The notes below the pieces were generated by a model. That model was not told the DNA's origin, did not search any database, and saw only the letters and a program-made list of their open reading frames with translations. Shown here in pieces: positions 8,996 through 37,055 of a DNA stretch of 37,306 bases. The stretch comes from Lachnospiraceae bacterium (lineage in GTDB: Bacteria > Bacillota > Clostridia > Lachnospirales > Lachnospiraceae). The stretch is taken from positions 1-37,306 of the forward strand of contig JAILCW010000079.1 in NCBI GenBank assembly GCA_024690265.1, given 5' to 3'. Numbering within the stretch: the stretch's first letter is position 1; each line of letters begins with the position of its first letter. Both the position numbers and the translations under genes were made by a program.

Positions 8996-10177
8996 TTAAT
9001 ATTCGCCTTTGCGATACTTCTCTACCAAGGAATTGATACGCTCGTATGGATCCAATAAGGAAGCAATGGAGCAATCATGATTCAAAGTATCAATGATGTA
9101 AGCGATGTATTTGCTCATGTCGCAACTGATGTAGTAGTCGCGGCTTAAGAGCTCAGGTGTCTGGTAAGCTAAGTTGGTAGTAACTACACGATAGATTAGG
9201 CCTTCTTCAACAGCCTTATCAAAACTTGCCATACCATTGGTGAACAAACCGAAGGTTGCAACAGCAAAGATACGGTTTGCTTTACGCTTCTTCAACTCTC
9301 TGGCAACATCAATCATAGATTCGCCGGAAGAAATCATATCATCAACGATGATAACGTCCTTGCCCTCAACAGAAGAACCAAGGAACTCGTGAGCAACGAT
9401 TGGGTTACGTCCATCAACAATCTTGCTGTAGTCGCGACGCTTGTAGAACATACCCATGTCTACGCCTAAAACGCTGGCCATATAAACAGCACGGTTGGTA
9501 CCGCCTTCATCTGGGGAGATAATCATCAAGTGATCGTTATCTAACTGCAAATCCTTAACGTTCTTGCAGATGCCCTTAATAAACTGGTAGGTTGGTTGAA
9601 CGGTCTCAAATCCATGAAGTGGAATAGCATTCTGTACACGAGGATCATGTGCATCAAAGGTGATGATATTATCAACGCCCATTGCAACCAACTCCTGAAG
9701 TGCTAAAGCACAGTCCAAAGACTCACGAGCGGTACGGCGATGCTGACGTCCTTCATATAAGAATGGGATAATTACGGTAATGCGCTTACCCTTGCCACCT
9801 GCAGCAGCAATGATACGTTTCAAGTCAGAATAGATATCATCCGGAGACATGTGGTTGGTCTGACCACATACAGTATAAGTCAGGCTCCAGTTGGTGACAT
9901 CCACCATGATATATAAGTCCAAGCCACGAATAGACTGACTAAAGCTGCCCTTGGCTTCGCCGGAACCAAAACGCGGTGTATTCACCGGTACAAGATAGGA
10001 ACCACTCTGATAGGTGGTACGTTCGATATCGTCTAAGTGATCGGAAGCACGATTGGCTCTCCAATCAACGAGGTAATTGTCGACCTTGGTTCCAATTTTG
10101 GAAATGCTCTTGTGAGCAATTAAACCAACGGGAGCAATGGGTTTACGGGTTACTAACGTGTCATCATTGCGTGGCAT
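8996..10177 (-). CDS. prs: Ribose-phosphate pyrophosphokinase (PRPP synthase), extended Clostridia-type
   Basis: IIPFLYEGRQHRRTARESLDCALALQELVAMGVDNIITFDAHDPRVQNAIP, SPDEGGTNRAVYMA, KRRDYSKIVDGRNPI, VIIVDDMISSGESMIDVARELKKR. Confidence 0.9.
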   Translation of the reverse strand: MPRNDDTLVTRKPIAPVGLIAHKSISKIGTKVDNYLVDWRANRASDHLDDIERTTYQSGSYLVPVNTPRFGSGEAKGSFSQSIRGLDLYIMVDVTNWSLTYTVCGQTNHMSPDDIYSDLKRIIAAAGGKGKRITVIIPFLYEGRQHRRTARESLDCALALQELVAMGVDNIITFDAHDPRVQNAIPLHGFETVQPTYQFIKGICKNVKDLQLDNDHLMIISPDEGGTNRAVYMASVLGVDMGMFYKRRDYSKIVDGRNPIVAHEFLGSSVEGKDVIIVDDMISSGESMIDVARELKKRKANRIFAVATFGLFTNGMASFDKAVEEGLIYRVVTTNLAYQTPELLSRDYYISCDMSKYIAYIIDTLNHDCSIASLLDPYERINSLVEKYRKGEY

Positions 10178-10253: not shown

Positions 10254-11264
10254 TTAGAATTCGGAAAGACTTTTCTGAACGCGAATGTCCTGACCAAATA
10301 AAGTTATCAAGGTATAGTGCTCAATGAAGCGGGATGAAATACGTTCACCATAAGTGTTTGCAATGTCACCAATTCGTAAGTTAGTAGAAATAACGGTGGA
10401 ACGCTTATGTAACAAGCGCTCATTGATGCATTGGAATAATTGAGAAGTAGTAAAGGAATTGGAAAACTCCGTTCCTAAATCATCAATAATAAGCAAATCA
10501 CAATCAAAAATATTCTTGTATGGAACTGTATCATCATCGGAAGCATCCTTCTTATGGAAGGTATTCTTCTCGAAAATCTCAAACAACTGGAATGCAGTAA
10601 GATAAATCACGGAATAGCCCTGATCTAATACAGCCTTGCCAATGCAATTGGAAAGGTAAGTCTTACCAACACCGGTATCTCCAAATAATAGAATATTGTC
10701 ATGTCTGGTGGAAAAATTGTGGACGAAATCCAATGCGTCCTCGTATGCCTTGTGAGCGTTCTCCTTGGCGGAGATGCCGGAACCAGACTTGTCATCGTAG
10801 TAATCATCCGCATAGTAATCGAAGGAGAAATGATCAAAGTTCTCAACTTCAAAAACTTTCTGGATGTGTTCCTGCGAATAAAGAAGATCAATGGCACGCT
10901 GTGTAAAGCAATGGCATGGACGATGGTCGATATAACCGGTATCCTTGCAGTCCGGACAGTGATATGGGGGATTGAGATAATCTACCCCATATCCGTGGGA
11001 CTGAAGTAAAGACAGCTTCTCCTGAATGAGCTCTTCGATTTTGCTGTGAAGATTGGAGGTGTCAACCGATCCAGTCAAGCCCCCCTCTATACTTGCCTGG
11101 ATCAAATCAACACTAGAAGTAGCTATCTCGTTGTCGATGGCTTGGAAACGAGGGATCTTGGCATAGATTTCCTCGCGTCGATTATGAATCAAAGACTCAC
11201 GGTCGGACCGCAAGATCTCATACTGGCGCATAATTTGATCATATTGATGATTTGTTAATGACAT
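10254..11264 (-). CDS. DnaI/DnaC-like helicase-loader AAA+ ATPase
   Basis: Cys cluster YHCPDCKDTGYIDHRPCHCF; Walker A LLFGDTGVGKTYLSNCIG; Walker B LLIIDDLGTEF; sensor region VISTNLRIGDI. Confidence 0.88.
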   Translation of the reverse strand: MSLTNHQYDQIMRQYEILRSDRESLIHNRREEIYAKIPRFQAIDNEIATSSVDLIQASIEGGLTGSVDTSNLHSKIEELIQEKLSLLQSHGYGVDYLNPPYHCPDCKDTGYIDHRPCHCFTQRAIDLLYSQEHIQKVFEVENFDHFSFDYYADDYYDDKSGSGISAKENAHKAYEDALDFVHNFSTRHDNILLFGDTGVGKTYLSNCIGKAVLDQGYSVIYLTAFQLFEIFEKNTFHKKDASDDDTVPYKNIFDCDLLIIDDLGTEFSNSFTTSQLFQCINERLLHKRSTVISTNLRIGDIANTYGERISSRFIEHYTLITLFGQDIRVQKSLSEF

Positions 11265-11281: not shown

Positions 11282-12388
11282 CTAACGACGTTTCTGTAGT
11301 AGCTTGGCTTCTAAGGCATCGTAGTCATATTCACGCTCGTCAAAATTACGGAAGCGGTTGGTACGAGCATTAGAAGCAGCGGTGGCATTCCGCGGTGCAG
11401 ATGTGGCCTTCTTGCGACGGTTGGCATCGAAGGTGGCATCTAAGGATTGAACATCTTCTAATGTATGAACCTTGGATTGATGCCACTTACGAAGAATGGA
11501 ATCCGCGTAATCGAAGCTCGGTTTCTGAATGGTAAGAATGGTACGATTCAGAGCTTCTTGAACGATGGCAATTGGGAATCCGTATTCTCGTTCCCATCGC
11601 TTTACGTAATCCATTTCCACATCTGTGAGATTCCGCCCCGATATACCAAAAGCTTTGGCAACAGCTCTGGTATACTCGGAACGTAACTCGTTTTCCCCTT
11701 TGGCTTGGCTGACGGTCTTAATACCTGCTTCGGCCCAATTAATAGCCACCTTGTTCATATAGTGAAAACTGGAATGATTCTTGCTGATACAATACTCTAC
11801 CAAGTATTCAATAAGTTCTACGGACATTTGCAATTCATCATACCAGAACATCAAGGTCTGTAGTTCGCTGCTCTTCAGAGGCTTGCCAATGTACATTTCA
11901 GTGACACGGGTGAATTCCTTCACCTCAGCCTGAGATGAAAAAATGGCTAACTCATCGGAAGAATAAGTTCGCTGCTGTGGAACGCTGGAGGTGACAGTCT
12001 TATCAGGTGCAATCTGAGTCACCATGGAAACCGTTGAAACAACCGGTGAAATCGGCTCCACAGGAGTAGAACTTTGCGGTACCGGTGTGGAGTACGGATC
12101 CAGTAGGCAAATCCCGATGAGATCACCTGCTTCGTCATATTCTAAACGAAGTAGATTCTGTCGTTCCCAATACTCAAGGGCGCGCTTGATATCACGCTGT
12201 GTATGGTCGAGCTTGTCTGCCATGGCTGAAATGGAAAAATCCATTCCTTCCTGTGACAAGCAACGAAGCATGTACAGGTAAATCTTGACGTACTCCCCGT
12301 TGGCGTCCTTCATGAAATTGTCAATAAACGTATTGGAAACACAAGTCACCTGGCGAGAGGTACTTGTGTGCAACATAATATCTGACAT
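11282..12388 (-). CDS. DnaD-domain primosome protein
   Basis: N-terminal wHTH-like region (MLRCLSQEGMDFSISAMADKLDHTQRDIKRALEYWERQNLLRLEYDE) and two DnaD-like segments (LMFWYDELQMSVELIEYLVEYCISKNHSSFHYMNKVAINW; VKRWEREYGFPIAIVQEALNRTILTIQKPSFDYADSILRKW). Confidence 0.85.
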   Translation of the reverse strand: MSDIMLHTSTSRQVTCVSNTFIDNFMKDANGEYVKIYLYMLRCLSQEGMDFSISAMADKLDHTQRDIKRALEYWERQNLLRLEYDEAGDLIGICLLDPYSTPVPQSSTPVEPISPVVSTVSMVTQIAPDKTVTSSVPQQRTYSSDELAIFSSQAEVKEFTRVTEMYIGKPLKSSELQTLMFWYDELQMSVELIEYLVEYCISKNHSSFHYMNKVAINWAEAGIKTVSQAKGENELRSEYTRAVAKAFGISGRNLTDVEMDYVKRWEREYGFPIAIVQEALNRTILTIQKPSFDYADSILRKWHQSKVHTLEDVQSLDATFDANRRKKATSAPRNATAASNARTNRFRNFDEREYDYDALEAKLLQKRR

Positions 12389-12420: not shown

Positions 12421-12448
12421 ATCATAGCATAACATTTTTGGATTGAAA
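12421..12448 (-). promoter_or_regulatory. Candidate sigma-A promoter for dnaD/dnaI-like operon
   Basis: On the minus strand: TTTCAA (12448-12443), 16-bp spacer, extended TGC-TATGAT (12426-12421). Confidence 0.4.
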
Positions 12449-12495
12449 AGAGGAAAAATTGGCGGAAACCCAGTAAAATCAAGGGTTTACGGGAA

Positions 12496-12600
12496 TGTGG
12501 ATAATGTGGATAAATCGGAAAAGTACCGATAAATGGGCAAAAGAAATCCACACAAGAATTGGTATAAAATCACCAGCTCCTGTGTGGATAATGTTGATAA
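12496..12600 (+). promoter_or_regulatory. DnaA-box cluster: TGTGGATAA at 12496-12504, 12505-12513, 12583-12591; TGTTGATAA at 12592-12600; weaker opposite-orientation AAATCCACA at 12544-12552
   Basis: Three perfect copies of the reverse complement of the DnaA consensus TTATCCACA plus one single-mismatch copy, arranged as two abutting pairs in the intergenic region upstream of dnaD. Confidence 0.75.
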
Positions 12601-12603
12601 CTT

Positions 12604-13980
12604 TTATTTTAAGAGGTTTTCTCCAATGGTATAGACGTTTCCGGCGCCCATAGTTATCAACAGATCACCGTTCATAGAATTTTCTTTTAAATATTCTTCT
12701 ATGTCGTCAAAACTTGAAAAATATTCACAAGGTGTACCTAACTCCAAAATCTTGGCCTGCAGGTCACGGGAGCTGATATTGTAAATATCCTTCTCACGAG
12801 CTGCATAGATATCAGCCAGTACTACCTGATCCGCCTGAGATAATACCTTGGCAAAGTCATCTAAGAACGCCAGCGTACGTGTATAGGTGTGTGGCTGGAA
12901 GCAAACAACCAAGCGGTCGTGTGGGTAGTTCTTCGCTGCTGCAAGGGATGCCGCAATCTCTGTTGGATGATGTGCGTAATCATCGATGATGGTAGCGCCC
13001 TTGAACGTGCCCTTGTACTCAAAACGACGATTGGCGCCGCCAAAGTCAGCCAGTCCCAACTGAATCTGTTCATAAGAAAGACCCATAGCGCGCGCAACGG
13101 CAACCACGGAAAGCGCGTTGGTAACGTTATGTAATCCCGGTACATGTAAGGTAATAGGTCCTAATGTTTCGCCAAACGCAACCGGCGTAAAGGTTGCACA
13201 ACCAAGCTCATCAAAGGTAATGTCCGTTGGATAGTAGTCGTAGGACTCAGAACGGCCAAAGGTAATAACCTGACAATCCAAGCCCTCTGTAATGGTATTC
13301 ACCTCTGGAATCTCACCATTGATAACAAGCGCGCCATCGCTGGAAGTGTTGGCAGCAAACTGATGGAAACTGTCGCGGATATCATCAATATCCTTGAAGA
13401 AATCCAAATGCTCTGCCTCAACATTTAGGATGATGCTGTACTTCGGGAAGAAGGACAGGAAACTATTGGTGTATTCACAAGCTTCGGTTAAGAAAAGATC
13501 AGAATCACCAACGTGGATGTTGCTGCCGATTGCCTTGAGGAAACCGCCGATGGAAATGGTAGGGTCTTCCTGGCCTCGTAACAGTACCTGACTCATCATG
13601 GAAGTAGTGGTTGTCTTGCCATGGGTACCTGCGACAGCAATTGAACGCTCGTACTGAGCCATAATCTGTCCCAACAAATCTGCACGGGTAAGCATTGGGA
13701 GATGCTTGGAAACAGCAGCTTTGAACTCCGGATTTTCCGGATGAATCGCTGCGGTATAAACGACAACGTCAATGTCGTCGGTAATATTCTCAGCACTTTG
13801 TGGATAAGAAATGTGGATGCCCTTCGCAGTCAATCCGTTTGTGACATCGCTCTCGCGCATGTCGGAGCCGGATACTACAAACTTCCAGTCCAAGAGGATT
13901 TCAGCCAATCCGCTCATGCTGATACCACCGATGCCAATAAAGTGCACGTGCATCGGTTTGGAAAAATCGATTTTGTACAT
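12604..13980 (-). CDS. murC: UDP-N-acetylmuramate--L-alanine ligase
   Basis: MHVHFIGIGGISMSGLAEILL, SIAVAGTHGKTTTTSMMSQVL, DDYAHHPTEIAASLAAAK, CFQPHTYTRTLAFLDDFA. Confidence 0.95.
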   Translation of the reverse strand: MYKIDFSKPMHVHFIGIGGISMSGLAEILLDWKFVVSGSDMRESDVTNGLTAKGIHISYPQSAENITDDIDVVVYTAAIHPENPEFKAAVSKHLPMLTRADLLGQIMAQYERSIAVAGTHGKTTTTSMMSQVLLRGQEDPTISIGGFLKAIGSNIHVGDSDLFLTEACEYTNSFLSFFPKYSIILNVEAEHLDFFKDIDDIRDSFHQFAANTSSDGALVINGEIPEVNTITEGLDCQVITFGRSESYDYYPTDITFDELGCATFTPVAFGETLGPITLHVPGLHNVTNALSVVAVARAMGLSYEQIQLGLADFGGANRRFEYKGTFKGATIIDDYAHHPTEIAASLAAAKNYPHDRLVVCFQPHTYTRTLAFLDDFAKVLSQADQVVLADIYAAREKDIYNISSRDLQAKILELGTPCEYFSSFDDIEEYLKENSMNGDLLITMGAGNVYTIGENLLK

Positions 13981-29514: not shown

Positions 29515-32500
29515 ATGAGAAGCAAATGGATTTCTAACGTGATACTTTCGATCTCAATAATTGCATGCATGTTATCTCCGATGGTGGCGTATGCAACAGA
29601 GGAGAACACAGACGATTTGCAGGCGGAAGTGTCGGGGGACGCTAGAGCGAATGCAAACAAGGGCGGTGGATATGCGGTCAGTGGTCAGTTGGCAGAGATC
29701 GGATATTCCATGCAGATATACGATGAAAGCAATGGTCTTCCTACGTCTGACGCGAATTGTGTCCTGTCAGATAGTAAGGGTTATATGTGGATTGGTGGAT
29801 ATGCCGGCATCTTTCGATACGATGGCATATCCTTTGAACGACTGCCTTCTACCGAAGGTCTGACTAGTGGCAGAAGTCTGTTTGAAGACAGTAAGGGGAG
29901 AATCTGGGTCGGAACTAATGATAATGGTATTGTGGTCATTGATGGTGACAAGCAGACCCATATCACATACAAGGATGGCCTGAAGTCATCCACCATTCGT
30001 ACCTTTGTGGAGGATGATGCGGGAAGAATATTTGCGGGAACCTCTATGGGAGTTTGCCTCATTTCTGATGATTATCAGATTACAAACTTTACGGATGCTA
30101 CCTTAAAGGATGCCTATGTCCTTCATATGGTAAAGGCAAATAATGGGTATATTCTGGGCGTTACCAAGAATGGCGTGTTATTCCGAATCAAAGATGGCTG
30201 GTACGAATCCTGTATTGCCGGTGATAACCTGGGAATTGGTGCTATCACTGCGGTTTGTCCGGACCCAGAGAATCCGGAGTTTATGTACCTCGGTAATGAC
30301 GAGGGCAAAGTATATTACGGGGAATACGGGGATTATCAAACTAAGATGAAGGAGATTGACGTATCTCCTGCCATTAGCGTAAATTGGATGACCTATGCTT
30401 GCGGGCGCATATGGGTGGTGTCCGATGATACTGTGGGATATTTGGATGACCAAAAGGAGTACGTAAATCTTTCCAATCTTCCGCTTACCAGTGGAATTGA
30501 AATGTTGGTGGAGGATTATCAGGGGAATCTGTGGATGGCATCCAGCCGACAGGGCGTTGCCAAAGTAGTAGCCAATAACTTCCATTTTCTTTCAGAGCAG
30601 GCAGGCTTGGAAGAGCAAGTTGTAAATACAACATGCCTGTATAATGGAAAACTCTATATTGGTACGGATCATGGTCTTCAGATCATCGATGAAAACCAGC
30701 AAGGATATACGGATGAGTTGACGGAGTATTTGGCTGAAACCCGTATTCGATGCATCCGAAGAGATGGTGCGGGAAATCTGTGGATTGCATGCTACAACAA
30801 CGGAAAAGGTTTAACGAGATATTCGTCGGACGGTAGTATCTATAGCTTTACAGAAGAGAATGGTTTTATAACCAATTCTGTACGTTGCGTATATCCTATG
30901 TCAGATGGTTCTGTTATTGTAGGCACCAATAATGGTGCAGCAGTCATTAAGGGGGATCAGGTGATTCGGACCTATGGTCGTAGAGAGGGTATGGCGAACC
31001 TGGTTTGTCTTAGCGTAGAAGAAGGTCCGAATGGGGATATCATCATTGGAACCGATGGTGGTGGAATGTATGTAGCCAGCGGAAATGAATTCCGCCATTA
31101 TGGACGAGGAGATGGTATGACCTCAGACGTATTGATGCGTAGTTATTGGGATGAGACCCGAGGCATCTATTGGCTGGTTACATCTAACTCACTGCAATAT
31201 CTCAAAGATGGGTTGGTGTACGAGATTAAGACCTTCCCTTATGCAGATATTTTTGATGTATGTTTTGATAATCACGACAATTTGTGGGTGATTTCCGCTT
31301 ATGGATTGATTTGCCTCAAGGCAGATGATGTTTTGAATAAATCCGATTATAGCTACCAGGTCTATGACGGACGGTGTGGTTTGACGTCTGAGGCTACGGC
31401 CAATTCCTACATTGAAAAAGATGATGAAGGAAACATTTATCTGGCAGAACGATTGGGCGTTGATAAGGTTAATATTAATAATTTCTTCCAGCAGAATAAT
31501 GAGATTCGAATTGGGTTAAAGAACATTACCTGCAGTACCGGAGAAATCGTACCCCGCGAAGATGGGGTATACGAGATTCCATCGGATGCCGGTCGTATCC
31601 AGATTCATGCAAGTGTACTGAATTATTCTCTGTCGAACCCGACGATTCATATTTTCCTTGAAGGGGATGAAGAATCCGGCATCGAGGTAAATCAGAGAAA
31701 CATTACGGCTTTGGAGTACACCAACTTGCCTTATGGCAATTATACGTTGCATGTACAGATCGTAGATGAGGCAACTCGGGAAGTTTATAAGGATTCAACC
31801 TTTGCCATTGATAAGCGTCCGCGTGTTATGGAGTTATTTGTGGTAAAGCTGCTGCTGTTAGCACTGTTGGCTTTGGTGGGCGGCTTAATTGTATGGCGTA
31901 TTATGAGTGGAACGGTTATCCGTCGTCAATACAGGGAAATTGCGGCTGCAAAGGAAGAAGCAGATCGTGCAAATAGTGCCAAGTCTCGATTCCTGGCGAA
32001 TATGTCCCATGAGATTCGAACACCAATTAACACCATTCTCGGAATGAATGAGATGATATTACGAGAGGATCCAACGGGAGTGCCTAAGCCATATTTCCTT
32101 GCCATGATGAATTACTCCATCGATATTCGACAGGCATCAGAAGCCTTGCTTGGATTGATTAACGATATCTTGGATTTGTCCAAAATCGAATCCGGCAAGA
32201 TGCACCTTGTAGAGCAGGAGTATGATCCGGCAGAACAGATTCGCGGCATGATTAAGATGATTCGGGTGCGTAGCGACCAGAAGGATTTGAACTTTGACGT
32301 GGATGTAGACGAGAATCTTCCTCGCCGATTGTACGGTGATAGTGGCAAGATTAAGCAGGTGGTGCTGAATCTGTTGACCAACGCAGTAAAGTACACCAAG
32401 GAAGGTGGATTCACCTTGACGGTGAAAGTGTTGGAGAAGAGTCAGGAACGTTGCCGTGTGCTGTTTTCGGTGAAGGATACCGGAATCGGCGTTCGTCCGG

Positions 32501-33783
32501 AGGATATGGACAAATTGTTCTCTGCCTTTGAGCGACTGGATGAGAATAAAAACAGCGGCATTCAGGGAACCGGTTTGGGATTGGATATTTCCCGTCAGTT
32601 CGCGGAATTAATGAACGGCAAATTGACTTGCGATAGTGTCTATGGCGAAGGTTCAGACTTTCAGTTTGTTATAGAGCAAAAGATTATAGATGCGGCTCCA
32701 ATTGGTGTGTTCGATGAAGATGAGGAGCCGATGGCCAAGGGACCATACGTTCCAAAGTTTGTAGCACCGGATGCAGCTGTATTGGTGGTAGATGATAATC
32801 CGATGAATCTGACGGTTATCAAGAATCTTTTGGCTGCAACCAAAGTATTTGTTTCTACTGCAACCTCCGGGGAAGAGTGCTTGAATAAACTAAAGGAAGG
32901 TAGCTTTGATGTGATTCTGTTAGATCACATGATGCCGGGAATGGATGGAATAGAAACCTTAGAAAAGATTCGAGAACGATATAAAGATTTACCGGTTTAT
33001 GCCCTTACTGCAAATCTTGAATCGGATGGAGGAGAATTCTATAAGTCCAAAGGTTTTAATGGATACTTGTCCAAGCCGATTGATTCGGAGACCTTGGAGC
33101 TTACAATTCTTAAGCATCTTCCGGAGGAGAGTGTTATGATTCCGCAGGATGTTTCGGCTGGGAAGTCTATGGAATTGCCGCCGGAATACGATTGGGTACG
33201 GGCAATTGAGGGTATTGATCCAGAAGAAGGAATCAAAAACAGCGGTGGAGTAGATACCTATATTTACAGCTTGGGATTGTTCCACGATACTATCGAATCA
33301 AATGCTGCGGTGATTGAAAAGGCATGGAAAGATGGAGATATCAAGCTGTTTACCACCAAGGTACATGCACTTAAGAGTTCAGCGCGTATTATTGGTGAGA
33401 TTAACTTGTCGAAGTTGTCGTTGGAATTAGAGGAAGCTGGTAAGAAGGGGGATAAAGCTTTCATCGATGCGAATGCGCAGAATCTGTTGGATTTGTATCG
33501 ATCATATTTGGAGATATTTAAAAGAATTGCAGGCTCTAAGGAAGTGGAGCAACTGGGTGTAGAACGTCATGCAATTCCGAAAGAAGCTCTGGAAGATGCG
33601 GTTGTTGCACTGAAAGAATTAGTTCCGGCCATGGATTATGATGGCGTAGAGATGGTGTTGCAGGAAACCCAAAATTATCGGTTAGAAAAGGAAGATGCCG
33701 AGTGGTTCAGTGAGATGGAAAAGGCTTTACGCGTTATCGATTGGGATCACATGGAAGAACTGTTAGGAGCTAGAAAGAAATGA
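29515..33783 (+). CDS. Hybrid sensor histidine kinase: signal peptide, Reg_prop beta-propeller plus Y_Y_Y-like sensor, TM, HisKA-HATPase, REC, Hpt, conserved C-terminal tail
   Basis: Repeats such as DSKGYMWIGGYAGIFRYDG and DSKGRIWVGTNDNGIVVIDG; FLANMSHEIRTPINTILGM; GTGLGLDISRQF; AVLVVDDNPMNLTVIKNLL...DVILLDHMMPGMDG; VHALKSSARIIG. Confidence 0.92.
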   Translation: MRSKWISNVILSISIIACMLSPMVAYATEENTDDLQAEVSGDARANANKGGGYAVSGQLAEIGYSMQIYDESNGLPTSDANCVLSDSKGYMWIGGYAGIFRYDGISFERLPSTEGLTSGRSLFEDSKGRIWVGTNDNGIVVIDGDKQTHITYKDGLKSSTIRTFVEDDAGRIFAGTSMGVCLISDDYQITNFTDATLKDAYVLHMVKANNGYILGVTKNGVLFRIKDGWYESCIAGDNLGIGAITAVCPDPENPEFMYLGNDEGKVYYGEYGDYQTKMKEIDVSPAISVNWMTYACGRIWVVSDDTVGYLDDQKEYVNLSNLPLTSGIEMLVEDYQGNLWMASSRQGVAKVVANNFHFLSEQAGLEEQVVNTTCLYNGKLYIGTDHGLQIIDENQQGYTDELTEYLAETRIRCIRRDGAGNLWIACYNNGKGLTRYSSDGSIYSFTEENGFITNSVRCVYPMSDGSVIVGTNNGAAVIKGDQVIRTYGRREGMANLVCLSVEEGPNGDIIIGTDGGGMYVASGNEFRHYGRGDGMTSDVLMRSYWDETRGIYWLVTSNSLQYLKDGLVYEIKTFPYADIFDVCFDNHDNLWVISAYGLICLKADDVLNKSDYSYQVYDGRCGLTSEATANSYIEKDDEGNIYLAERLGVDKVNINNFFQQNNEIRIGLKNITCSTGEIVPREDGVYEIPSDAGRIQIHASVLNYSLSNPTIHIFLEGDEESGIEVNQRNITALEYTNLPYGNYTLHVQIVDEATREVYKDSTFAIDKRPRVMELFVVKLLLLALLALVGGLIVWRIMSGTVIRRQYREIAAAKEEADRANSAKSRFLANMSHEIRTPINTILGMNEMILREDPTGVPKPYFLAMMNYSIDIRQASEALLGLINDILDLSKIESGKMHLVEQEYDPAEQIRGMIKMIRVRSDQKDLNFDVDVDENLPRRLYGDSGKIKQVVLNLLTNAVKYTKEGGFTLTVKVLEKSQERCRVLFSVKDTGIGVRPEDMDKLFSAFERLDENKNSGIQGTGLGLDISRQFAELMNGKLTCDSVYGEGSDFQFVIEQKIIDAAPIGVFDEDEEPMAKGPYVPKFVAPDAAVLVVDDNPMNLTVIKNLLAATKVFVSTATSGEECLNKLKEGSFDVILLDHMMPGMDGIETLEKIRERYKDLPVYALTANLESDGGEFYKSKGFNGYLSKPIDSETLELTILKHLPEESVMIPQDVSAGKSMELPPEYDWVRAIEGIDPEEGIKNSGGVDTYIYSLGLFHDTIESNAAVIEKAWKDGDIKLFTTKVHALKSSARIIGEINLSKLSLELEEAGKKGDKAFIDANAQNLLDLYRSYLEIFKRIAGSKEVEQLGVERHAIPKEALEDAVVALKELVPAMDYDGVEMVLQETQNYRLEKEDAEWFSEMEKALRVIDWDHMEELLGARKK

Positions 33784-36287
33784 TGGAATTCTTGAGACAT
33801 TTTCAATTGAGCGTGGAATTGTTCCTTGCTGGTGGAAGTGGAGTCCTGATATTACTGACATTTTTTACCGAAACTATGTCAAAGGGAAGAAAACGGGCAA
33901 TGATTCTGCTGGAATTAGCGGGAATGCTACTGCTGATTTTTGACCGCTTAGCTTACTTGTACCATGGTGCTCCGGGGGAGGAAGGGTATTGGCTGGTACG
34001 CATTTGCAATTTCTTCACTTTCTTCTTTACGTTGACGGTGGTACATGCGTTCAATCTTTATCTAATGGATTTGTATCGGACGCCGGATAAGCTTGGCAGA
34101 ATACCCAAAGCGCTGTTGGCGAATGAAGTAATGTATTTCTGCGGCTTTACGATGTTGACGATTTCTCAGTTTACCGGATGGTATTACACATTTAATGCGC
34201 AAAATGAGTATCAGCGGGGACCTCTATTCTTGCTATGTTATTTATTCCCGGTCCTTATGACCGTCAGTGAGATTGTGGTGATGCTGATTTATCGGGACTG
34301 CCTCACCAGGCAGGAATTCATACCGGCATTTTTGTTTGGTTCCATTCCGCTTTTGGCTTCGATATTGCAGATATTCCTGTACGGATTATCGCTAACCAAC
34401 ATTGCGTTACAGGGCATGGTTGTGCTTTTGTATTTCTTCGAAATCAAGAATCTGAATGCGTTGGATGAAAAGCGACGTAAGGCAGAGGAAGCAAACACAG
34501 CCAAGTCCCGATTCCTGATTAACATCTCTCATGAGTTGCGTACGCCGATTAATACCATTATGGGTATGGATGAGATGATTCTTCGTGCTGATGCATCGGA
34601 AGTGCCACAGGATTATCATCAGGAGGTGACGAGGTATGCAAAGGATATTGCTGTTGCTTCGGATACCCTGTTGTCACTGGTAAATGATATCTTGGATATT
34701 TCTCAAATCGAATCCGGAAATATGTATCTGGGTGAGAAAGAGTATAACTTGAAGGAACTGCTACAGGAGTTGTCCTCGCTTACAAGAGCCAAATGCCAGG
34801 ACAAGGATTTGGGATTTGGAATTCATGTCGATGGAAAACTCCCGGAGGTTTTGTTTGGAGATTCCGATAAGATACATCGCATCGTGCAGACATTTCTGAA
34901 TAATAGTATCAAGTATACGGAAGAAGGTCAGATTGATTTCTATGTAACAATGGAGCAGCGTAAGCAGGATGAGGTGACCATTAAATTTGCTGTAGAAGAT
35001 ACCGGAGTTGGCCTAAAACAGGAGACTATCAATCAGATGTTTGCCGCCTTTGAGGATTTGGATCATGCCCATACTTCCAACCTGGCGGGGACCGGCCTGG
35101 GGCTGGATATTGCAAAACACTTTTCGGATATGATGGGCGGTAAAATTGGATGTACCAGTAATTATGGCCGAGGAAGTGTCTTTAGCTTTGTTGTGACTCA
35201 GCGCGCGGTTGATTCTGTAGAAATTGGAGATTTTACAGAGCAAGAGTCAGAAATCTCTACCGGAGCCTATGTTCCGCGATTCATCGCACCGGATATCAGT
35301 ATCCTGGCAGTGGATGATAATGCCATGAACCTGGCAGTCATTCAGGGATTGCTGGCGGCAACCAAGATGTATGTGGTTACTTCAGAATCCGGCGAGGATT
35401 GCCTGGAAAAGATGGAGGAGGGCCACTATGATTTGGTGCTCCTAGATCATATGATGCCGGGAATGGATGGTTTGGAAACTGTGGCAAAGATTCGGGAGCA
35501 TGGATGGAAGGTTCCGGTTATTGCACTGACGGCCAACTATATTTCCAATGGTGATGACTATTATACATCCAGAGGCTTTGATGGCTATCTGCCGAAGCCG
35601 GTGGATGGCGAGACATTAGAAAAAGTCATCCGCCAATTTTTGCCGGATGAAGTGGTTATGGATGCGGATGAAGCGGAACTTTCGCCGGAGGCTGCCTTGG
35701 GAGAGGAATATGGATGGTTGTACGACGTGGATGGAATCTCGGTAGAGGATGGTATGCGATATTCTGGTGGAGCGTCAGGTTTTGTTACATCCATTCAGTT
35801 ATTCTATGACACCATTAAAGAGCATGCGGCGGTGATTCAGAAAGCCTATGACGAAGGCGATTTGAAGTTCTTTACAGTAAAGGTTCATGCACTAAAAAGT
35901 TCGGCTCGTATCATTGGAGCGGCTGAATTATCAGAACAGGCGAAGCTGTTGGAAGATGCCGGCAAGAAGGGTGATTTGGAGTACATTGGAGCCCATGCCA
36001 AAGAAATGTTGGATCTGTATTTGTCTTACGAAGAAAAGCTACATCAATTGGTCAAAGAAGAATCTGACGAAGGAAAGGAGTTGATTCCAAGTACAGAGTT
36101 AGAGGATGCCTATGGCGCGCTGAAAGAGTTGGCGGCGCAGATGGACTATGATGCAATAGAGATGGTGCTTGGAACCGTTAAGGAATACCGGCTTCCGAAA
36201 GAAGATGCCGCATTATTCCGAGAGTTGGAAAAGGCATGGAAAACTTTTGATTGGGATCGAATGGAAGAAATATTACAGGAGAAGTAA
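33780..36287 (+). CDS. Hybrid sensor histidine kinase: ~7TM N-terminus, HisKA-HATPase, REC, Hpt, conserved C-terminal tail
   Basis: FLINISHELRTPINTIMGMDEMI; GTGLGLDIAKHFSDMMGGKIG; ILAVDDNAMNLAVIQGLLAATK...DLVLLDHMMPGMDG; VHALKSSARIIGAAELS. ATGA overlap with the upstream kinase. Confidence 0.92.
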   Translation: MMEFLRHFQLSVELFLAGGSGVLILLTFFTETMSKGRKRAMILLELAGMLLLIFDRLAYLYHGAPGEEGYWLVRICNFFTFFFTLTVVHAFNLYLMDLYRTPDKLGRIPKALLANEVMYFCGFTMLTISQFTGWYYTFNAQNEYQRGPLFLLCYLFPVLMTVSEIVVMLIYRDCLTRQEFIPAFLFGSIPLLASILQIFLYGLSLTNIALQGMVVLLYFFEIKNLNALDEKRRKAEEANTAKSRFLINISHELRTPINTIMGMDEMILRADASEVPQDYHQEVTRYAKDIAVASDTLLSLVNDILDISQIESGNMYLGEKEYNLKELLQELSSLTRAKCQDKDLGFGIHVDGKLPEVLFGDSDKIHRIVQTFLNNSIKYTEEGQIDFYVTMEQRKQDEVTIKFAVEDTGVGLKQETINQMFAAFEDLDHAHTSNLAGTGLGLDIAKHFSDMMGGKIGCTSNYGRGSVFSFVVTQRAVDSVEIGDFTEQESEISTGAYVPRFIAPDISILAVDDNAMNLAVIQGLLAATKMYVVTSESGEDCLEKMEEGHYDLVLLDHMMPGMDGLETVAKIREHGWKVPVIALTANYISNGDDYYTSRGFDGYLPKPVDGETLEKVIRQFLPDEVVMDADEAELSPEAALGEEYGWLYDVDGISVEDGMRYSGGASGFVTSIQLFYDTIKEHAAVIQKAYDEGDLKFFTVKVHALKSSARIIGAAELSEQAKLLEDAGKKGDLEYIGAHAKEMLDLYLSYEEKLHQLVKEESDEGKELIPSTELEDAYGALKELAAQMDYDAIEMVLGTVKEYRLPKEDAALFRELEKAWKTFDWDRMEEILQEK

Positions 36288-37055
36288 ATGGGTACGACAG
36301 AAAATGGAATCATGATACTTGGGGAAAAGGAAACGTTCATTATTCGTGTTCTGCTTAACAAACTGGCAGATGCAGGAATCGACGCGTACTTTGTGCCCTT
36401 GGATGTGGAGCAGATTAATGTGTTTTGGAAGACGACATCGTTGGTGACGTTTTACATGGAAGGCGAAGAAGAACTTCCCAAGGATGTTCGGGCGTATCTG
36501 GCAGATCACATGTGTGACGACGACAAGCAGTTAATGCTGATTGGAGAGCCGCGAGGGACAGAAAAAGTTAAGGAACAGTTGCCGGGTGAGTTGATTTATA
36601 AAGTGTTGCCGCGCCCATTGGACTATGAGGAATACATCTACAATGTGAACCAGTATCAAAAGAAAATGGGTACCGGAGAATTAAAAAAGAGTATTCTGAT
36701 TATCGATGATGATCCGAACTACATGAGTTTGGTGCGGGAGTGGTTGCATGATAGTTACAAAGTATCTATGGCAACTTCCGGTATGCGAGGTATCAAATGG
36801 TTGGGCAGCAACAGGGCAGATTTAATTCTTCTTGATTATGAAATGCCGGTAACAGATGGTCCTCAGGTGTTGGAAATGTTACGTGCAGACGAAGATACCA
36901 AAGATATTCCGGTAATTTTTCTGACGGGTAAGGATGATAAAGAAAGCGTTATGGCGGTTGTGTCCTTGAAGCCGGAAGGATATTTCCTAAAGACGATTGG
37001 TAAAGAAGATTTGTTGAACAAGTTAAAAGTATTCTTTTTATTCAAAGAAGAATAA
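36288..37055 (+). CDS. Two-receiver protein without output domain: N-terminal pseudo-REC, C-terminal canonical REC
   Basis: C-terminal ILIIDDDPNYMSLVREWL...DLILLDYEMPVTDGPQVLEML...VIFLTGKDDKESV; N-terminal half has REC-like length and a KVLPRPLD end but lacks the acidic pair and phospho-Asp. ATG immediately follows the upstream TAA. Confidence 0.85.
   Translation: MGTTENGIMILGEKETFIIRVLLNKLADAGIDAYFVPLDVEQINVFWKTTSLVTFYMEGEEELPKDVRAYLADHMCDDDKQLMLIGEPRGTEKVKEQLPGELIYKVLPRPLDYEEYIYNVNQYQKKMGTGELKKSILIIDDDPNYMSLVREWLHDSYKVSMATSGMRGIKWLGSNRADLILLDYEMPVTDGPQVLEMLRADEDTKDIPVIFLTGKDDKESVMAVVSLKPEGYFLKTIGKEDLLNKLKVFFLFKEE

Follow-up and report, generated by a model that had tools for sequence, protein, structure and literature searches.

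We consider it probable that the intergenic gap between murC and a dnaD/dnaB-like gene of a Lachnospiraceae bacterium is a DnaA-responsive module, which would place the adjoining dnaB/dnaD-dnaI helicase-loader operon under transcriptional control by the replication initiator. DnaA is both an initiator and a transcription factor, and to our knowledge conserved DnaA targets beyond model species are poorly charted. The gap, which lies in a window of 37,306 nucleotides (the whole stretch of DNA analysed here), offers a candidate for such a target that is conserved across a dominant family of gut and rumen, constrained in its geometry, and located at the genes of DnaA's downstream partners, the helicase loaders. 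This arrangement points to a loop, feed-forward or feedback, in the control of initiation. The open literature that we searched, which covered few subscription papers, contained no paper on DnaA boxes in Lachnospiraceae, and we provisionally regard the array as previously undescribed in it.

The box cluster and its genes

Four 9-mers of the TTATNCACA type lie closer together than expected by chance and form a DnaA-box cluster of two abutting pairs (Table 1), with coordinates, strand and spacing all as given in an earlier sequence-only reading of this DNA. Four boxes with at most one mismatch in 105 bp were not recovered in any of 1000 Markov-1 resamples of the window, and three boxes were recovered in 3 of 1000. 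The same resampling predicts 0.53 exact boxes per 37 kb, where four were found. The total of boxes with at most one mismatch in the whole window is ordinary (14 versus 12.6 expected), and only their clustering is unusual. Relatives in the genus carry an exact TTATCCACA at the place equivalent to the first box of pair 1, and one of them (G003) has the same TTATCCACATTATCCACA tandem pair beside dnaA, which supports the identity of the pair as a DnaA site.

The cluster occupies a gap of 215 bp between the murC stop codon (12604-12606) and the dnaD start (12388), with both genes on the minus strand. The primosomal protein labelled "dnaD" by the sequence-only reading does not have the DnaD layout of a winged helix plus one DnaB_2 domain, since it contains two DnaB_2 domains; its N-terminal part has no significant match in Pfam. 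Two such domains are found in Bacillus subtilis DnaB and one in DnaD (PMC5295017), and the gene pair is therefore as close to the B. subtilis dnaB-dnaI operon as to dnaD. The product of the second gene of the pair scored under the cut-offs of both the DnaI and the DnaC models. At the far end of the window (29515-37055), two large hybrid sensor kinase genes are followed by a response-regulator gene, as judged from their translations.

Table 1. Features of the murC-dnaD region, in coordinates of the window.
Feature	Position	Strand	Details
Ribose-phosphate pyrophosphokinase (PRPP synthetase) gene, next downstream	8996..10177	minus	NF005299, TIGR01251
dnaI/dnaC-like AAA+ helicase loader gene	10254..11264	minus	PF01695; NF005304 ATP-binding protein, 372 bits
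dnaD/dnaB-like primosomal protein gene, two DnaB_2 domains	11282..12388	minus	PF07261 twice; DnaD of PDB 8ojj, E 1.5e-8
Candidate dnaD promoter	12421..12449	minus	TTTTCA, 17 bp, TATGAT with TG (extended -10); TTTTCA...TGTGCTATAAT conserved across the 103 regions compared
DnaA box 2 of pair 2	12496..12504	minus	TTATCCACA; 3' end 69 bp from -10 hexamer
DnaA box 1 of pair 2	12505..12513	minus	TTATCCACA
Intrinsic murC terminator hairpin	12546..12589	minus	RNA fold -25.4 kcal/mol, z -4.37
DnaA box 2 of pair 1	12583..12591	minus	TTATCCACA; ATCCACA within it supplies the 5' base of the terminator stem of murC
DnaA box 1 of pair 1	12592..12600	minus	TTATCAACA; few bases past murC stop
murC, UDP-N-acetylmuramate--L-alanine ligase, upstream gene	12604..13980	minus	TIGR01082, 463 bits, above cut-off
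Inverted DnaA box within murC codons	12654..12662	plus	TTATCAACA; minus strand CTG TTG ATA ACT = L-L-I-T

Two other clusters were seen in the same genome. Four exact boxes lie upstream of a stand-alone response-regulator-receiver gene (C28:18620-18712; L001, L031), with identical spacing in four species of the genus (also G001:C59, G002:C125 and G003:C9). Convergent box pairs (C147:8216-8330; L032) are flanked by a PucR-type regulator/ftsE-ftsX group on one side and an NlpC/P60 cell-wall hydrolase gene on the other, with counterparts in the genus (G003:C15, G002:C131 and G001:C222).

Family-wide conservation, the murC terminator and murC codons

Conservation of the boxes upstream of dnaD in relatives, which the sequence-only reading had named as its own test, proved to be strong. 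We compared 113 upstream regions from about 110 Lachnospiraceae genera (73 discovery and 40 held-out), of which 105 have at least three boxes within one mismatch and 83 at least two exact boxes. Exact boxes in the murC-dnaD gap of these 113 regions number 275 against 0.8 expected from shuffles, a comparison in which kinship is not weighed. As a guard against bias to close relatives we also picked the 30 genera whose DnaD is most divergent, and 25 of them still have at least three boxes; in three further species of the genus both tandem pairs are perfect and nearly equally far apart. Genome-wide, 62 of the 107 tandem-pair sites in 40 genomes are located within 600 bp of dnaD. Conserved boxes upstream of the promoter, one mark of a DnaA-regulated promoter, are accordingly a family-wide feature, with the array absent in some Lachnospiraceae genera (e.g. 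G018, G065, G048 and G213). In Clostridia outside the family it was found in none of 23 dnaD upstream regions and in none of the parsed murC ends; in two genomes from sister families of the order it is absent, at dnaD in one and at the murC end, with codons unparsed, in the other. The comparison gave no support to the possibility that the array tracks murC or dnaD singly through Clostridia, since neither gene end has it outside Lachnospiraceae.

Pair 1 reaches into an intrinsic terminator of murC, a GC-bearing hairpin with a covarying stem and a T run, in which the 3' base TGTGGAT (12546-12552) is followed by T-rich TTCTTTT (12539-12545). Across 78 regions, the eight inner-stem positions beside the box are paired at a mean of 5.96 of 8, compared with 3.73 (sd 0.13) when the arms were swapped among genera. 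Because pairing exceeds that of the arm-swap control, the stem is under selection as a stem, with the bases of the box doing double duty. A simple terminator scan detected nothing here, probably owing to stricter loop and stem rules, whereas folding and the covariation swap test did detect the hairpin; Rfam gave no match in this region. A recurrent word, GTTTACATAA, follows the terminator between the two pairs in about ten genera (e.g. L037, L038, L054, L055 and L060).

A further box runs in the opposite direction within murC itself. In 56 of the 68 discovery regions that could be parsed, and in 33 of 38 held-out ones, L-L-I-T is encoded by [CGT]TG TTG ATA AC, which makes an inverted TTATCAACA. 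Outgroup murC genes lack the inverted box; their codons differ and the second position is mostly V or I. The murC codons are, on this comparison, constrained by the inverted box. Such a codon constraint, together with a terminator made of DnaA boxes, is unusual and yields sharp mutational predictions. The inverted box, the role of the box at 12583-12591 as terminator base and the conservation across the family had all escaped the sequence-only reading. Box identity and conservation, terminator covariation and codon constraint, like the spacing and orientation described below, can be read directly from the sequences.

Promoter geometry and candidate DnaA control

The candidate dnaD promoter lies where the sequence-only reading had guessed it (12449-12421). 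Taking as reference the -10 element, chosen by a scoring rule that in a later version of the search disregards the -35, the tandem pair ends 66-70 bp upstream in 67 of 113 regions, and a pair at this distance is missing in about 40% of them. Side peaks are displaced by one 9-bp box (58-59 and 78-79 bp) with little elsewhere, and the 66-70 bp peak of the discovery set was seen again in the 40 held-out genera. With the start codon as anchor the peak is gone, and the distance between pairs 1 and 2 is variable. In regions of equal spacing, the 46-bp spacer between pair 2 and the -35 has a median identity of 37% versus 26% when shuffled, indicating that its length is more tightly kept than its sequence. 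Boxes in the pair-2 zone share the orientation of dnaD in 201 of 207 cases, and the core promoter is overlapped by a box in only 1 of 103 regions. A constrained geometry between boxes and promoter, as expected of a DnaA-regulated promoter, is thus observed.

Between pair 2 and the -35 there is also an inverted repeat, AAACCC-N11-GGGTTT (loop TTGATTTTACT; 12466-12488, minus strand), which is possibly the site of a second regulator. Kindred repeats with other loops occupy the same place in several genera, with the core reversed in one (L023). The repeat has a single site in its own genome within three mismatches, which rules it out as a mobile or repeat element.

We hypothesise that DnaA binds the two head-to-tail pairs and the inverted boxes cooperatively. 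Pair 2 would then span roughly positions -99 to -82, counted from the expected start site and centred near -90, ahead of a promoter whose -35 is poor and whose -10 is extended. Since the pair keeps a fixed distance and a single orientation, DnaA probably works from upstream and not by covering the promoter; it could act as an activator or within a loop with pair 1, the control being exerted by contact with RNA polymerase or by such a loop. Pair 1, inside the murC terminator, would divide the two transcription units, and the level or nucleotide state of DnaA would determine how much helicase-loading protein is available to oriC. We infer DnaA binding at the array, the sign of regulation and looping from sequence, and lean only weakly towards activation. 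The abutting boxes speak against DnaA control, being unlike the pairs 2-3 bp apart that Escherichia coli DnaA prefers (PMC11317965).

A narrower transcriptional variant, in which DnaA represses the operon or the array acts as a DnaA roadblock to murC read-through beside the terminator, overlaps with our main reading as a variant of its sign, and we hold it to be possible though somewhat unlikely. Pair 1 is indeed built into the covarying terminator that immediately follows the murC stop, transcription in E. coli can be terminated by DnaA bound within a transcribed stretch (reviewed in PMC11317965), and repression is the commoner direct mode among the B. subtilis targets of PMC4447404. However, a steric repressor should overlap the core promoter, which is box-free in 102 of 103 regions, and a roadblock would not account for the constant spacing between pair 2 and the -10.

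Alternatively, the array could be a site of DnaA titration or inactivation near oriC, of the B. subtilis cluster or E. coli datA type, with its location at dnaD being incidental. Most tandem pairs of the sampled genomes sit here, purely titrating clusters near oriC could likewise be conserved, and clusters outside oriC delay initiation in B. subtilis (PMC5295017, PMC13220808). The position would also suit such a site: in seven of seven near-complete genomes the distance between dnaD and dnaA is 86-517 kb, no more than about 14% of the genome. Titration requires a number of boxes, but not a fixed promoter distance, a common orientation or linkage to one gene pair throughout a family, and with at least two other clusters in the genus the murC-dnaD array is not the sole possible DnaA buffer. 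We therefore regard this explanation as unlikely. Of the functions that the sequence-only reading had listed, transcriptional control is favoured because the distance between pair 2 and the promoter is fixed, whereas mere titration is disfavoured; some titration of DnaA is a probable by-product, as with the clusters near oriC in B. subtilis.

We think it quite doubtful that the gap is a DnaA-gated junction, in which DnaA occupancy and termination would affect each other through the bases common to boxes and terminator. DnaA state would in that case set both murC read-through into the helicase-loader operon and firing of the dnaD promoter, and so couple the synthesis of cell-wall precursors to helicase loading in Lachnospiraceae.

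Chromosomal position and known systems

A role of the murC-dnaD gap as primary or secondary replication origin is very improbable, even though tandem boxes lie in intergenic DNA and the same pair motif adjoins dnaA. GC skew is positive throughout the window. In the single-contig genome G250 the skew reverses at dnaA (position 1) and again at about 1.5 Mb, and is negative on either side of dnaD (3.11 Mb). Neither skew inversion nor dnaA/dnaN linkage is found at murC-dnaD, and inspection by eye noticed no AT-rich unwinding stretch or DnaA-trio run beside the pairs. The view of the sequence-only reading that this is unlikely to be oriC is borne out, with no skew flip in the window and a complete relative in which the flip occurs at dnaA, 407 kb from dnaD. 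GC skew and the position of dnaA thus rule out an oriC, and together with the dnaD-dnaA distances given above they place the cluster in an origin-proximal part of the chromosome while excluding the origin itself. The assembly containing the window (2.13 Mb, 77% complete) lacks a dnaA gene. In all seven near-complete genomes (G282, G244, G250, G177, G215, G300 and G079) murC-dnaD runs against the expected fork direction; transcription against the fork is unusual for essential replication genes.

It is scarcely credible that the boxes are by-products of an inverted repeat serving merely as terminator and of TTATCCACA copies arisen by chance or tandem duplication since, although the stem does include box 2 of pair 1, this leaves pair 2, the murC codon constraint and persistence over about 110 genera unexplained and is contradicted by the box counts.

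Among known systems, the oriC of G003 (the dnaA-dnaN intergenic region) shares the TTATCCACATTATCCACA pair with the array, which differs in its locus and in its unchanged skew. The B. subtilis dnaB-dnaI operon resembles the genes described here in that a two-DnaB_2 protein and an AAA+ helicase loader are encoded side by side, whereas linkage to murC and prs distinguishes the latter. DnaA control of B. subtilis dnaB-dnaI, which the sequence-only reading had taken as known, was not found in the accessible texts, and the operon is missing from the direct DnaA targets listed in PMC4447404. That list includes sda, which is activated, and ywlC, vpr, trmE-noc and ywcI-sacT, which are repressed; DnaA-regulated genes of E. 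coli include nrdA, purH and others (PMC11317965). Such targets likewise have boxes upstream of the gene, and in E. coli also paired boxes and replication-linked genes, but here the target is a helicase-loader operon, with abutting 9-bp boxes in a fixed far-upstream position. In the DnaA/DnaA-box transcription block at E. coli asnC (cited in PMC11317965) a box is similarly located at the end of a transcription unit, whereas the box at murC belongs to an intrinsic terminator, as the base of its stem. In B. subtilis, initiation is advanced when the six DnaA-box clusters outside oriC are removed together (Okumura et al. 2012, reviewed in PMC5295017 and PMC13220808). Like these, the array is multi-box and lies away from oriC in the origin-proximal part of the chromosome; unlike them, it is tied to one gene pair throughout a family, keeps a fixed distance from a promoter and includes a box in coding sequence.
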